Below, one piece after another: positions 12,854 through 50,322 of a DNA stretch of 64,000 bases; the first letter of the stretch is position 1; every line of letters begins with the position of its first letter. The translations under genes and the position numbers were made by a program. The notes under the pieces are model-generated. The model was not told the origin of the DNA, ran no database searches, and worked only from the letters and a program-made list of their open reading frames with translations. This stretch comes from Terrimonas ferruginea DSM 30193 (GTDB lineage Bacteria > Bacteroidota > Bacteroidia > Chitinophagales > Chitinophagaceae): NCBI RefSeq assembly GCF_000425585.1, contig NZ_AUDS01000026.1:1-64000 (forward strand), written 5' to 3'.

Positions 12854-12897
12854 TTAAACAGCCATGGTTCGTGTATACACGAACCATGGCTGTTTAA
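12854..12897. repeat. 44-bp perfect palindrome, long form of the dispersed family
   Basis: The core is GGTTCGTGTA/TACACGAACC flanked by CCAT/ATGG and extended by TTAAACAG/CTGTTTAA, with no mismatch over 44 bases. The same core recurs at nine other places in this window, including four tandem copies before the RAYT gene and one directly after it. It lies just past the stop of the serine hydrolase. Confidence 0.92.
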
Positions 12898-14054: not shown

Positions 14055-14185
14055 TTTCGGGATACCAGGATGTACTCAAAACCTGGTTCGTGTATACACG
14101 AACCATGGCAACTGGGACTTTGTCAGGAAGCTTTTTTGGTGACACCGGGAGGTATTCAAAACCGCGGTTCATGCATACACCAACC
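14055..14185. repeat. Two copies of the palindrome inside a duplicated unit
   Basis: The first copy has the exact 20-base core at 14085-14104 with outer arms CCTGG and CCATGG. The second, at 14166-14185, is a three-mismatch version (GGTTCATGCATACACCAACC). The bases before each copy are alike (GATACCAGGATGTACTCAAAACC against GACACC...TATTCAAAACC), so a unit of about 80 bases was duplicated. It lies between the LigD stop and the start of the serine hydrolase. Confidence 0.75.
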
Positions 14186-41831: not shown

Positions 41832-43394
41832 TTAATAGGTAAATTCGGCATACCCTTCGTTGAGCCGGATATCGCGCGCGGCAGTAAAGGCGTCTACTTT
41901 TTCCACGAAAGAAAAATCTTTGATCAATCCTGCCACCAGGTTGATGTCTTCAGCAAAAATGCGGTCTTCCTCGGCAAAGCTTACGTAGTTGCGCACAAGG
42001 TCATGTGCAAACTCGAGCACTTCGCTGCTGCGATGCGGACGGCGGAATTCAATCGCCTGGCAGGCGCTGAGCAATTCGATCGCCAGGATATTTTCGAGGT
42101 TATCAAGCACCTGGTTGAGTTTGCGCCCGCTGATGCTGCCCATGCTCACATGGTCTTCCTGTCCGAGTGAAGTAGGAATACTATCGGCGCTTGCAGGAAA
42201 GCAAAGTGTTTTGTTTTCCGTTACCAAAGCAGCAGTGGTGTATTGCGGGATCATGAAGCCGCTGTTCAATCCTACATCTTTCATGAGCAACATCGGCAAA
42301 CCCCATTTGCCTTCCAGCAGCAAATAACAACGGCGATCGGAAATATTACCGATCTCTGCTGCGGCAAAGCAGGCATAATCGAGTGGCAGCGCGAGTGGTT
42401 GCCCGTGGAAGTTTCCACCGCTGATGGTATCTGTTGCGGAAAAAATGATCGGGTTATCAGTAACGGCGTTAAGTTCCGTTTCGGTCAATTCTTTTAAATG
42501 AAACCAGGCTGTGCGGCTGGCACCGTGTACCTGCGGCATGCAACGGAGGCTGTAAGGGTCCTGTACACGTCCGCAGTCCACATGGCTTTGCATAATGGCA
42601 GAATCACGCAGGATCAGGCGCAGGCGTTGTGCTACGAGCCGGTTGCCGGCATAAGGCCGGAGTTTGTGCAGGCGTTCGTCGAACGGTGCGTTGGTACCTG
42701 TCAGGGCTTCAAGCGTCATGGCGCCGATGATATCGGCAGCCTCAAGGCAATTATGCATCCGTTGCACCGCTTTTACGGCGAAGGAAAGAATGAATTGCGT
42801 GCCGTTGATCAGTGCCAGTCCTTCCTTAGGACCAAGTTGGATTGGCAATAATTGGTTTTGTTGCAACACCCGGGCAGTCTTTTTCTTTTCGCCATTAACC
42901 CAGCATTCACCCAAACCAATAAGTGGAAGGAAGAGATGTGCCAGAGGGGCCAGATCGCCGGAAGCGCCGACGCTTCCCTGGCTTGGCACTACGGGAATAA
43001 TGTCGTTGTCGATATGCCAGATGATCCTTTGTAAAGTGGACAATTGCACCCCGCTGTACCCTTGTGCAAGAGATTGCACTTTGGTAATGAGCATGAGCTT
43101 CGACACTTCCGGAGCGATAGGTTCGCCTACTCCCACGCTGTGGCTTTGCAGGATCTTGTATTGAAGTGTGGCGGTATCTTCTTCTGAAATAGGCTTATTG
43201 GCAAGGATTCCGAAGCCGGTATTGACGCCGTAGACGGTGCGGCCGGTGCTGACGATCTGAGCTACTTCACCCTGGCTGGCGAGTACGCGTGCGGTAGCTT
43301 CGTCATTGAGGCTGGCTTTGAGCTGGCCGCGGGCAATAGCGATAGCTTTGCTGGAAGTGAGCCGGTCGGTGCCGTAAAAAAAAGTATCGGGCAT
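41832..43394 (-). CDS. hutH: Histidine ammonia-lyase
   Basis: 520 residues. It removes ammonia from histidine to form urocanate, the first step of the Hut pathway. The self-made MIO cofactor arises from the Ala-Ser-Gly triad in [14 protein letters not shown] near residue 145. Further conserved text is [12 protein letters not shown] and [13 protein letters not shown]. It is the first gene of the hutH-hutU pair. A TATTTTTG box lies 18 bases upstream. Confidence 0.97.
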
Positions 43395-43411
43395 ACAAAC
43401 GTGTTAGGGCG

Positions 43412-43419
43412 CAAAAATA
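43412..43419 (-). promoter_or_regulatory. Candidate -7 box of the hut operon
   Basis: The minus strand reads TATTTTTG (TAnnTTTG), 17 bases before the hutH ATG. The -33 region next to the first palindrome has no clear TTG, so it is only a candidate. Confidence 0.35.
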
Positions 43420-43464
43420 TCAAATTACGATCAGTCGTGAGTAGGTAAAATTTCCCGTCCAAAG

Positions 43465-43492
43465 CCATGGTTCGTGTATACACGAACCATGG
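43465..43492. repeat. RAYT-linked palindrome, tandem copy 1
   Basis: A 28-base perfect palindrome with outer arms CCATGG/CCATGG around GGTTCGTGTA/TACACGAACC. The 46-base spacer after it (GGGGAAAACGTTCGCC...) is nearly the same as those between the later copies. Confidence 0.95.
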
Positions 43493-43538
43493 GGGGAAAA
43501 CGTTCGCCTACCTTAAAAAAAAATCATCCCATCCAAAC

Positions 43539-43566
43539 CCATGGTTCGTGTATACACGAACCATGG
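43539..43566. repeat. RAYT-linked palindrome, tandem copy 2
   Basis: A 28-base perfect palindrome with outer arms CCATGG/CCATGG, preceded by CCAAAC. A 42-base spacer follows (AAGGAAAACGTTCGCCCACC...). Confidence 0.95.
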
Positions 43567-43608
43567 AAGGAAAACGTTCGCCCACCTGAAGAAAAATCAC
43601 CCCCAAAC

Positions 43609-43636
43609 CCCTGGTTCGTGTATACACGAACCAGGG
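43609..43636. repeat. RAYT-linked palindrome, tandem copy 3
   Basis: A 28-base perfect palindrome whose outer arms are CCCTGG/CCAGGG: the third base A has become C and its partner T has become G, so pairing is kept. A 40-base spacer follows. Confidence 0.95.
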
Positions 43637-43676
43637 AGGGAAACGTTCGCCCACCTGAAGAAAAATCACCCCCAAA

Positions 43677-43706
43677 CCCTTGGTTCGTGTACACACGAAC
43701 CAAGGG
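43677..43706. repeat. RAYT-linked palindrome, tandem copy 4
   Basis: A 30-base palindrome with outer arms CCCTTGG/CCAAGGG, again with pairing kept. Only the centre has one changed base (GTGTACAC instead of GTGTATAC), leaving the 14-base arms intact. Confidence 0.95.
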
Positions 43707-43769
43707 AGGAAAAGTTCCATCTAAACGTCCTGTCAAGGAAAGCCTCATCTGCTGAACGTCATTTTCACA

Positions 43770-43799
43770 TTGACATATTTATTGCCAGGAATAATTTCG
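43770..43799 (+). promoter_or_regulatory. Candidate promoter of the RAYT gene
   Basis: TTG at 43770-43772, then 19 bases, then TAATTTCG (43792-43799, one base from TAnnTTTG). It lies about 47 bases before the ATG chosen for the RAYT gene and would overlap the alternative ATG at 43804, which supports the later start. Confidence 0.55.
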
Positions 43800-43845
43800 C
43801 CCGATGATGAATAAAATCCTACCGTCACCTCGGCGGAACTCTTAT

Positions 43846-44367
43846 ATGGAAATGGAAGAGATTTACTTCTGGACGGCAACTATTCACCAATGGAACAAAT
43901 TACTGCTGGACGATACTTACAAGAAGATTGTTATTAACTCTCTTTGTTACCTCAGCGAAAAAAACCTGGTGGATATATTTGCTTTCGTAGTAATGCCCAA
44001 TCATGTTCATTTTATATGGCGATTAAATAAAATGAACGGAAAGCAACGTCCGCATCATTCGTTTCTAAAACATACCGCGCAGGAATTCAAACACAAACTT
44101 ACCTGTGAGAACCCTGCCAGGCTATTGCCATTTATGGTAAATACCGCCAATAAAAAATATCAATTCTGGAAACGCGACTCCCTGGCGATTCAGCTTTACA
44201 ACCGGCAAATAGCTTATCAAAAGCTGGATTATCTCCACAACAATCCGCTCGCAGGACGTTGGCAACTGGCTGCCGATCCTTGCAGCTACAAGTATTCATC
44301 TGCATCATTTTATGAGCATAACAAAAAACAGTTCAGTTTTTTGAAAGACCTGAGAGGTGAATTTTAA
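43846..44367 (+). CDS. REP-associated tyrosine transposase (RAYT, Y1/HUH)
   Basis: 173 residues from MEMEEIYFWTATIHQW. It is a Y1-type HUH endonuclease: the metal-binding motif VVMPNHVHFIWR gives His53 and His55, and the candidate nucleophile is Tyr129 in KLDYLHNNPL, followed by YKYSSASFYE. Such proteins cut and join single-stranded hairpin DNA (REP sequences) and do not carry a cargo gene. It is single and domesticated-looking, with no IS200 ends. Four tandem palindromes precede it and a fifth begins in its stop codon, so these are its likely substrates. A start at 43804 would add 14 residues. Confidence 0.88.
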   Translation: MEMEEIYFWTATIHQWNKLLLDDTYKKIVINSLCYLSEKNLVDIFAFVVMPNHVHFIWRLNKMNGKQRPHHSFLKHTAQEFKHKLTCENPARLLPFMVNTANKKYQFWKRDSLAIQLYNRQIAYQKLDYLHNNPLAGRWQLAADPCSYKYSSASFYEHNKKQFSFLKDLRGEF

Positions 44368-44407
44368 AACAGCCATGGTTCGTGTATACACGAACCATGG
44401 CTGTTTT
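44366..44407. repeat. 42-bp perfect palindrome overlapping the RAYT stop
   Basis: The arms run AAAACAGCCATGG...GTGTA and its exact complement, centred at 44386/44387. The first two bases are the last two of the RAYT stop TAA. This is the long form also found at 12854-12897, with AAACAG/CTGTTT added to the 28-base core. It may stop transcription as well as serve the transposase. Confidence 0.95.
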
Positions 44408-44446
44408 GCAGGAGTGAGCGAAAAATACTTTTAGTTAACAGATCAA

Positions 44447-45073
44447 TTAAAAATTAAACCCAAAATGAAGTCCGGGTTCAAAACCAAAGTATCCCGGCCA
44501 TTTACTTTCCTTTTCTTTAAAAGATTGTGGCGTATTCGTTTTTACAGGCCAATGAGTCAAACCGACAGATGGTTCTATAAAGAAACGGTTTTTAAATAGT
44601 TTAACCTGGTAACCCAAACGGTAGGTCATAAATAAGGTGAATCCATTTGCAATCTTTTTATCATCCTCATTATAATATCTTTGAAAAGCATTCATTGCAT
44701 GCACGCCTGTATATAATCCTTTCCACCAAAAACGATTGTACGCTAATCCAATTACATTTTGGCGCACATGTCCGGGATAGTTTTCTCCCGGCGCATCAAA
44801 TGATTTTCCCCAGGGAATACCTAACGGATAAGCAAACCTGGATCTTTTTAATTCCAGGAAAACAACATCTTTAGATGTGATCCTGTATCCAAGATTCAGT
44901 TGCATAAAATGAGGTGGATTACGGTCATTCGGAATAAAATTTCCCAGCATCAGGAATGTACTCCCAACAAAATACTTTTTGTAAGTACTGTCTTGTTGGA
45001 CATTTTGTGCATTCACTTGTAAACTGCCTGTCATCATTAAGGTCAAAGCGAAAAATACAATCTTCTTTTGCAT
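44447..45073 (-). CDS. Hypothetical secreted/outer-membrane protein
   Basis: 208 residues from MQKKIVFFALTLMMTGSLQVNAQN, a clear signal peptide. The mature part alternates hydrophobic and polar residues with many aromatic ends (LGYRITSKDVVFLELKRSRFAY, GLYTGVHAMNAFQRYY, FGFEPGLHFGFNF), which suggests a small beta-barrel. The last residue is Phe, as is usual for outer-membrane barrels. No family is recognised. The frame is longer by 14 codons but homologous signals begin at this Met. Confidence 0.75.
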   Translation of the reverse strand: MQKKIVFFALTLMMTGSLQVNAQNVQQDSTYKKYFVGSTFLMLGNFIPNDRNPPHFMQLNLGYRITSKDVVFLELKRSRFAYPLGIPWGKSFDAPGENYPGHVRQNVIGLAYNRFWWKGLYTGVHAMNAFQRYYNEDDKKIANGFTLFMTYRLGYQVKLFKNRFFIEPSVGLTHWPVKTNTPQSFKEKESKWPGYFGFEPGLHFGFNF

Positions 45074-45115
45074 GTCAATACTGTTATTAAATGTAATGCA
45101 AAGGTCGATTGGCAA

Positions 45116-50170: not shown

Positions 50171-50198
50171 CCATGGTTCGTGTATACACGAACCATGG
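50171..50198. repeat. Dispersed copy of the 28-bp palindrome
   Basis: A perfect match to the CCATGG-armed version found at 43465 and 43539, alone in the gap before the MFS gene. Confidence 0.92.
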
Positions 50199-50294
50199 CA
50201 TTGACCATTCACTATTCACCATTCACTTGTTGACTTATTGACGATTGACGATTGACGATTCACCATTGACTATTCACCATTCACTATTGACTTA

Positions 50295-50322
50295 TTGACG
50301 ATTGACGATTCACCTATCTTTG
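50295..50322 (+). promoter_or_regulatory. Promoter of the MFS gene
   Basis: TTG at 50295-50297, 17 bases, then TATCTTTG at 50315-50322, an exact TAnnTTTG. The ATG is 33 bases further on. The TTG is part of the TTGACGATTGACG repeat array, which offers several such sites. Confidence 0.7.

Follow-up and report, generated by a model that had tools for sequence, protein, structure and literature searches.

A RAYT gene of Terrimonas ferruginea and the REP-like palindromes, mostly symmetric, that recur across its genome

In the genome of Terrimonas ferruginea DSM 30193, a gene for a small HUH/Y1-type protein is preceded by four tandem palindromes and followed by another that begins in its stop codon, and the locus raises the question of whether the gene and the palindromes belong together as a RAYT (TnpA-REP) and its own REP family, and of which type such a family would be. 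The window, i.e., the whole stretch of DNA analyzed, is 64,000 nucleotides (64 kb) long, and its features are listed in Table 1. Searches covered the whole genome (G000; 4.69 Mb, 30 contigs), a family sample of 195 genomes with the T. ferruginea genome included, and an order sample of 395 other genomes; genomes carry G numbers and loci L numbers.

Table 1. Features of the RAYT locus and REP copies elsewhere in the 64-kb window
Feature	Position	Strand	Remarks
RAYT / TnpA-REP gene, 187 aa	43804..44367	+	HUH/Y1 motifs, profile, fold
Symmetric REP copy 1	43465..43492		TATA loop, variable pair A:T
Symmetric REP copy 2	43539..43566		variable pair A:T
Symmetric REP copy 3	43609..43636		variable pair C:G
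REP copy 4	43677..43706		TACA loop, variable pair T:A, both feet
Downstream REP, widened to 42-base perfect palindrome (21-bp arms)	44366..44407		
Dispersed symmetric REP copy	12862..12889		pairing reaches 22-bp arms
Dispersed REP copy	14081..14108		outer arm partly broken
Degenerate REP copy	14166..14185		3 mismatches in 20-mer
Dispersed symmetric REP copy	50171..50198		adjoins degenerate NATTSAC heptads

The RAYT open reading frame has no internal stops and lies between a minus-strand gene at 41832-43394, which we take to be hutH, and a minus-strand ORF at 44447-45115. The protein contains MPNHVHFIW and DYLHNNP, and with them the HVH and the conserved Tyr by which a preliminary description of this DNA had recognized a HUH/Y1 RAYT. 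The HUH motif is H67-V-H69, and further motif residues are W122, N147-P148, and S165-S166 in the tail; Y143 is assigned as the nucleophile by homology. In the alignment of RAYTs (A1, 58 of 71 rows), residues M64, H67, Y143, H145, S165, and Y170 were invariant and N66, H69, W122, Q139, N147, and P148 nearly so, and the profile built from the 58 rows matched a single solved sequence, 4ER8 (TnpA-REP), with E 4e-8. The same E. coli structure was the best PDB match (E 2e-8, TM 0.59/0.66) of the AlphaFold model (pLDDT 94.3, pTM 0.88), followed by ISDra2 and other IS200/IS605 transposases. A HUH motif and a single catalytic Tyr are combined in an IS200/IS605-like fold. The Pfam search of the protein at E 0.001 returned no family, and the NCBIfam REP_Tyr_transpos model NF047646 scored E 5.8e-20 and 71.7 bits, below its cut-off of 80; that cut-off is a naming threshold, and the kinship is supported by the fold and profile evidence.

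The four palindromes 5' of the gene have 14-bp arms and start 74, 70, and 69 bases apart, in agreement with the period of about 70 bases given previously, and the downstream palindrome is perfect over 42 bases, as had been described, its first base being the second base of the RAYT stop codon TAA (44365-44367). The spacers, described as almost identical, are so in part: stretches 43565-43633 and 43634-43702, each comprising a spacer and the next palindrome, are 94% alike, whereas the first 70-base array unit is only 66-90% like the later ones in ungapped comparison. These two otherwise similar stretches differ in the variable pair, i.e., the base pair between foot and TGG, on both palindrome arms, which means that the arms change together. 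The 20-mer core gave 9 matches with up to 3 mismatches within the 64 kb, compared to a mean of 0.00 in 100 shuffles, and a chance origin of the copies is excluded. Folded as single-stranded DNA, three of the five units at the gene reached -12.9, -14.6, and -22.3 kcal/mol (z -6.1 to -12.4). No Rfam family was found over 43300-44600. The idea that the array spacer is itself a dispersed element was rejected, as in the loci read from this genome it has no match beyond the array other than chance matches of 12 bases. Degenerate intergenic words of short period, namely, NATTSAC heptads, TTACTTAAAACTTATAAC, CCTTACACCTTACGCC, and TTTTGAATTTTGACTTTTGAATT, were seen in the window at about 50200-50300 and in many REP flanks.

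Across the genome, the pattern with up to 3 mismatches gave 149 forward and 153 reverse matches, i.e., about 150 copies, and 0 matches of the reversed-pattern control; exact copies of GGTTCGTG-N4-CACGAACC numbered 113 (control 0). This supports the earlier view of a RAYT with its own REP-like family of Bacteroidota type. The dominant form is CC-N-TGGTTCGTG-TATA-CACGAACCA-N-GG, which is symmetric, with the foot mirrored on both ends, and what had been described as a GTATAC center is read here instead as the TATA variant of a T-first tetraloop. Flanks were read in 65 distinct exact copies out of the approximately 150 (57 with the TATA loop and 8 with asymmetric loops), a sample skewed to TATA because most loci were picked by the TATA pattern. 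Among the 57 TATA copies, the 5' CC was present in 45, the 3' GG in 51, and both feet in 40, so that 17 did not have both. The variable pair was Watson-Crick in 55/57 (A:T 23, T:A 15, C:G 14, and G:C 3), whereas 1000 shuffles gave 17.9 on average and at most 31. The eight asymmetric-loop copies (TATT 4; TCTT, TCCT, TGTT, and TACA 1 each) carried the 5' CC in 8/8 and the 3' GG in 2/8. In an unbiased loop sample, the first 50 exact copies in contig order (a hand-copied list), there were 38 TATA loops and 12 others (TATT 4, TTTT 3, TCTT 2, and TGTT, TCTC, and CATA 1 each).

By crude gene calls, 46 of 58 copies lie in gaps, 11 inside ORFs of at least 90 aa, and 1 at a locus edge, and eight of the ORF-internal copies belong to ORFs drawn over the array at 43473-43755 or over that of L075. 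The REP copies of this genome are dispersed, mostly extragenic hairpins. At L001 and L090, two dispersed copies have one flank in common over about 60 bases or more; some copies were therefore duplicated along with the DNA next to them. Other REP-locus flanks, L091 and L096 among them, contain further recurrent intergenic palindromes, e.g., GGCCGAAGCTTCGGCC and GCCCGAAGTGTCGGGC. The search for enriched words in REP flanks returned mainly other REP copies and local heptads, and no further foot was recognized in them.

In comparison to 119 matches of the 28-mer with up to 3 mismatches in T. ferruginea, 4 of the 395 other genomes of the order had 1 or 2 each; all of these matches had 3 mismatches, and a TATA loop occurred in none of them, so that by this search the TATA form is absent from all 395. 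A match in G243, from another family of the order (L255:1281), is an imperfect hairpin with the loop AACA and with CC and GG at its ends, and the double foot alone is therefore not unique to the T. ferruginea genome; special to this genome is the double foot amplified together with the symmetric loop. The genome of the sister RAYT, G051, was considered as a second symmetric system and rejected: the palindrome adjacent to its gene is nearly symmetric, and the family is too small (7 matches with up to 3 mismatches, most of them poor, vs 1 in the control). Residue 123 (WK, not WQ) was also rejected as a cause of the symmetry, as WK also occurs at L041, the REPs of which are one-sided, and WQ occurs at the sister L043.

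In the family sample, the hairpin with a 3-4-nt loop was found in 38/195 genomes and a RAYT-like protein in 119/195. The hairpin of the relatives is the one-sided GCC-NN-GGTTCGTG-TCYY-CACGAACC-NN, which occurs as inverted copies around RAYT genes, often in REPINs; around many RAYTs, the loop of the upstream hairpin begins with T (e.g., TCYY), and the copy downstream is reversed. With orientation taken from T-first, non-self-complementary loops only, the foot GCC, set off from the stem by two bases on its 5' side, was present in 30/35 copies of one genus (G009, G108, and G179), 14/18 of G096, and 28/38 of other genomes. The two bases between foot and stem covaried, position 1 being Watson-Crick in 27/35, 18/18, and 32/38, respectively. 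Among 103 distinct exact copies of relatives (35 + 18 + 50, no loop filter), none had both feet, the loop read T-first in one of its orientations in 99, and it was self-complementary in 3. Inverted pairs with outward feet, i.e., REPINs (57-67 bp, one of 120), made up 11/23 loci of the G009/G108/G179 genus and 1/14 of G096. The preliminary description had noted that the GTAG foot is missing. GTAG is indeed absent, but a foot exists, namely, GCC in relatives and a doubled CC...GG inside the arms in T. ferruginea, and the missing GTAG foot is to be read as a GCC foot because the oriented copies of relatives share a 5' GCC. At L057, L058, L063, L066, L153, and L167, CGGTTGGTG-like hairpins have, in place of GCC, a foot that is apparently A/T-rich (TTA or CTA); different RAYT clades may thus have different feet.

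The hairpin type was compared with the RAYT phylogeny in a tree of 69 RAYTs (178 columns; rows shorter than 150 aa, L054 and L157, excluded). Hairpin labels, assigned by hand with 16 of the 69 rows unlabelled and uncounted, needed 14 changes on the tree compared to 32.2 when shuffled, with 0/200 shuffles as low, and the GGTTCGTG label (type A) needed 2 compared to 11.0. The GGTTCGTG hairpin was present in 13/15 genomes with a same-clade RAYT and in 25/180 others (P = 6.9e-9, a non-independent test, as the pattern was derived from some of the tested genomes), whereas the control hairpin GGTTGGTG was present in 1/15 and 20/180, respectively (P = 0.83); the same-clade node has a support of 84/83 only, and RAYTs outside the tree were counted as outside the clade. 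Hairpin type follows RAYT phylogeny, and the repeat family is specific to its RAYT, with exceptions.

Loci were also approached from the pattern. The four genomes of the order with the 28-mer included G433, where an inverted pair encloses a RAYT, and G091, where the match is a known RAYT locus; the loci in G293 (L254) and G243 (L255) had no RAYT. Among 26 loci of relatives fetched by the hairpin alone (L016-L037 and L070-L073), a RAYT lay within 3 kb at L016, L017, L020, L028, and L031 and none within 3 kb at the other 21. Of 46 named loci found, 20 were examined for hairpins and the 9 at least 42% identical to the RAYT were counted; hairpins flank 7 of these and none were present at L199 or at the contig-end locus L202, and the record names of 6/9 are Chitinophagaceae, Chitinophagales, or Chitinophaga. 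In T. ferruginea itself, the RAYT is flanked by hairpins that recur, mostly extragenic, genome-wide.

Repeats in relatives without the RAYT had been named in the preliminary description as evidence against the link, and such repeats were found in part. The one-sided hairpin occurs without a close RAYT in G009, G108, and G179 (14, 23, and 27 copies; one genus) and in G048 (34 copies, 83% complete), where the best RAYT matches are distant (E 1.8e-15, 4.5e-17, 3.5e-18, and 2.4e-8, respectively); the TATA form itself occurs in no sampled relative. At the four of five RAYT matches of G009, G108, and G179 that were read, there were other hairpins or none. In these genomes, the gene may have been lost or the hairpin may be served by other enzymes; RAYT loss was reported for many E. 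coli strains (PMC3733652). No clean empty site was found. In G003, the sole congener, hutH is 72% identical and the gene on the RAYT side is a different one, so no conclusion was drawn from it as an empty site.

The T. ferruginea genome contains a second RAYT, 39% identical to the first, at G000:C3:153498-153974 (minus; L093 and L192), which is flanked by its own hairpin, GTTGGTC-N4-GACCAAC, with 77 copies in the genome. Seven REPIN units of 103-104 bp with mostly outward CGCC feet belong to this second family (L074, L141, L143, and L145). One genome thus carries a classical REPIN family and a symmetrised family, and the latter does not consist of two inverted REPs with a spacer. A third RAYT-like protein, 23% identical, is encoded at G000:C17:65953-66480 (L193).

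The tandem array before the RAYT, previously described as a tandem cassette, is not special to this gene. Arrays of at least 3 units are present at the RAYT (4), L011 (4), L075 (5 main units), and L078 (3), i.e., 3 to 5 copies at the other loci, with unrelated spacers that differ per array. Other RAYTs with tandem hairpins upstream were found in G058 and G170. Both belong to other RAYT clades: at G058:C2:1409107-1410433 (L058), 8 tandem hairpins with spacings of 57-170 precede the gene and one reversed hairpin follows it, and at G170:C33 (L179), 5 tandem hairpins at a spacing of 58 lie before and one reversed hairpin after the gene. Tandem REPIN clusters are also known from E. coli (PMC8049555). 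The RAYT array is probably an ordinary local amplification, because arrays occur at other loci, before other RAYTs, and in E. coli.

The best explanation, to which we assign a probability of about 0.8, is a Bacteroidota-type RAYT (TnpA-REP) together with the REP family cognate to it. The RAYT would bind the REP hairpin on single-stranded DNA, e.g., on the lagging-strand template, read the foot, cut near it with Y143, and rejoin the ends, and this cutting and rejoining would spread units bounded by feet. TnpA-REP cuts REPs in single-stranded form, the dinucleotide at which it cuts being presumably selected by the 5' guide sequence, and a T of the hairpin loop is contacted by the IS transposases related to it (PMC8266576). 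GCC or CC would be the guide sequence in the present system, and the T-first loop fits a loop contact of the IS type. Letter for letter, a TATT-loop REP, which is present in the genome as well, yields the symmetric form when its 5' half is joined to the reverse complement of that half. The symmetric form may have originated from the one-footed CC-NT-GGTTCGTG-TATT-CACGAACC, the 3' half of which would have given way to a reverse-complement copy of the 5' half; a deletion in the middle of a REPIN and a fold-back template switch are possible routes. Amplification of the symmetric REP would have followed, in units of 28 bp that can be used on each of the two strands, with both arms kept matched by hairpin-templated repair.

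Among the features that count against this explanation is the pairing of the foot. In the symmetric form, the foot CC pairs with GG, whereas the E. coli enzyme makes contact with its GTAG foot, and activity was eliminated when a regular stem was restored (PMC8266576); group 3 enzymes use perfect stems with GTAG outside the stem (PMC8266576). The pairing raises the question of whether a stem-locked foot can still be read. A tentative answer, which we regard as possible but doubtful, is that the symmetric palindrome may be a REPIN collapsed to its minimum, a 28-bp hairpin with the guide on both ends and both strands and no need of a second REP. If so, the RAYT could process either strand, the paired CC/GG would be the contact between guide and cleavage site and no obstacle, and the family would represent a minimal mobile palindrome in which both ends form one recognition site.

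Among the alternatives, the RAYT could be domesticated or idle, and copies and arrays could be products of the host's replication, which would slip or switch templates at hairpins. Some genomes that lack a same-clade RAYT retain the hairpins, the arrays resemble local tandem duplications, and the arms match despite the variation of the pair between foot and TGG, all of which would suit an idle enzyme, but the catalytic residues are kept in 58 diverse proteins, the hairpin type follows the RAYT, and slippage cannot explain dispersal to many unrelated sites; we consider this unlikely. Rather less weight is given to a single TIR-type transposon consisting of the RAYT and its flanking inverted hairpins and moving as a whole, with the lone hairpins as remnants or MITEs. 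Inverted hairpins do flank many RAYTs, and RAYT-like genes flanked by TIRs, "TIRtrons", are in print (PMC3733652). However, one gene of the clade stands against about 150 hairpins in the genome, the gene is not multiplying, given that the other two RAYT-like genes share 39% and 23% identity with it, and short gene-less REPINs occur in relatives, which makes a transposon of this kind quite improbable.

The covariation of the hairpin and its mostly intergenic placement, with 17/46 gap copies between convergent ORFs compared to 26/114 gaps of the same loci, REP-bearing gaps included (crude calls), would also be expected of terminators or mRNA stabilizers under selection for RNA structure, with an incidental link to the RAYT. 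Terminator prediction called none of the five units at the RAYT, for which a terminator role was rejected on this ground, and RNA structure leaves the fixed core sequence, the one-sided GCC foot, the T-first loops, and the RAYT-following hairpin type unexplained; this reading is very improbable. The 20-bp dyad could also be read as an operator bound in double-stranded form by a nucleoid protein or a dimeric regulator, as suggested by the perfect dyad of the dominant form and the mostly extragenic sites; this is scarcely credible in view of the loop of relatives, dyad-symmetric in only 3/103 copies, their foot on one strand only, the covarying outer pair, which is unexpected for an operator, and the unrelated spacers in tandem arrays.

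As a RAYT with its cognate REPs, the T. ferruginea system apparently belongs to subclass 2.6 of Bacteroidetes, with which it agrees in most of the features compared. RAYTs of this subclass, the counterpart of RAYT group 5, are flanked by "atypical" hairpins without GT[AG]G (PMC6006769). Shared with subclass 2.6, as described in the accessible text of that paper, are the occurrence in Bacteroidetes, a length of about 179 aa, NH[LIV]H, a Y-x-H-[QN]-NP-type motif, an SS tail, and non-GT[AG]G hairpins that flank the gene and have copies elsewhere in the genome. The motifs WK and YLHNNP differ from WQ and YIH[QN]NP of the subclass consensus (PMC6006769), and WQ and YIH-type motifs are present in most same-clade relatives of the T. 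ferruginea RAYT. The subclass 2.6 hairpins were described as atypical, of weaker structure and found manually (PMC6006769), whereas the present ones have a GCC foot, a T-first loop, and a strong stem. The repeat type is therefore new only in part: atypical hairpins without GTRG were already in print, and a foot, a loop rule, and a symmetric form for subclass 2.6 were not found in the accessible text of PMC6006769, nor were a GCC foot, the loop rule, and a symmetrised family in Bacteroidota found in the literature searched, which was mostly open-access.

The 5' GT[AG]G foot of other REPs is replaced by GCC in relatives and by CC/GG in T. ferruginea. E. coli TnpA-REP and its REP (RAYT group 2; 4ER8; PMC8266576) share with the present system the fold, the HUH motif and Tyr, the 5'-guided hairpin, inverted REP pairs, and tandem clusters, and differ in the GTAG foot and bulged stem, compared to the GCC/CC foot and perfect stem here. 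Group 3 REPs of Stenotrophomonas and Marinomonas (PMC8266576) resemble it in their short perfect palindromes with 3-4-nt loops and in a foot placed directly or two bases 5' of the stem, but their foot is GTAG and one-sided, whereas here it is GCC and, in T. ferruginea, mirrored. Double-foot REPs of subclass 2.4 likewise have a foot and its reverse complement at the ends, for which an origin by central deletion of an inverted REP dimer was proposed, and differ in the GT[AG]G foot and in a RAYT of another subclass with internal insertions (PMC6006769). REPINs are inverted REP doublets that act as mobile units (PMC3116915, PMC8049555), as found in relatives and in the second RAYT family; the dominant T. 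ferruginea family, in contrast, consists of spacer-free single palindromes of about 28 bp. With this comparison, the poorly defined "atypical" REPs of Bacteroidota are given a consensus, i.e., a GCC foot, a perfect stem with a sequence that follows the RAYT, and a 3-4-nt T-first loop, and two RAYT-REP systems in one genome, together with a non-GTAG foot, make the guide-sequence model of REP cleavage testable.
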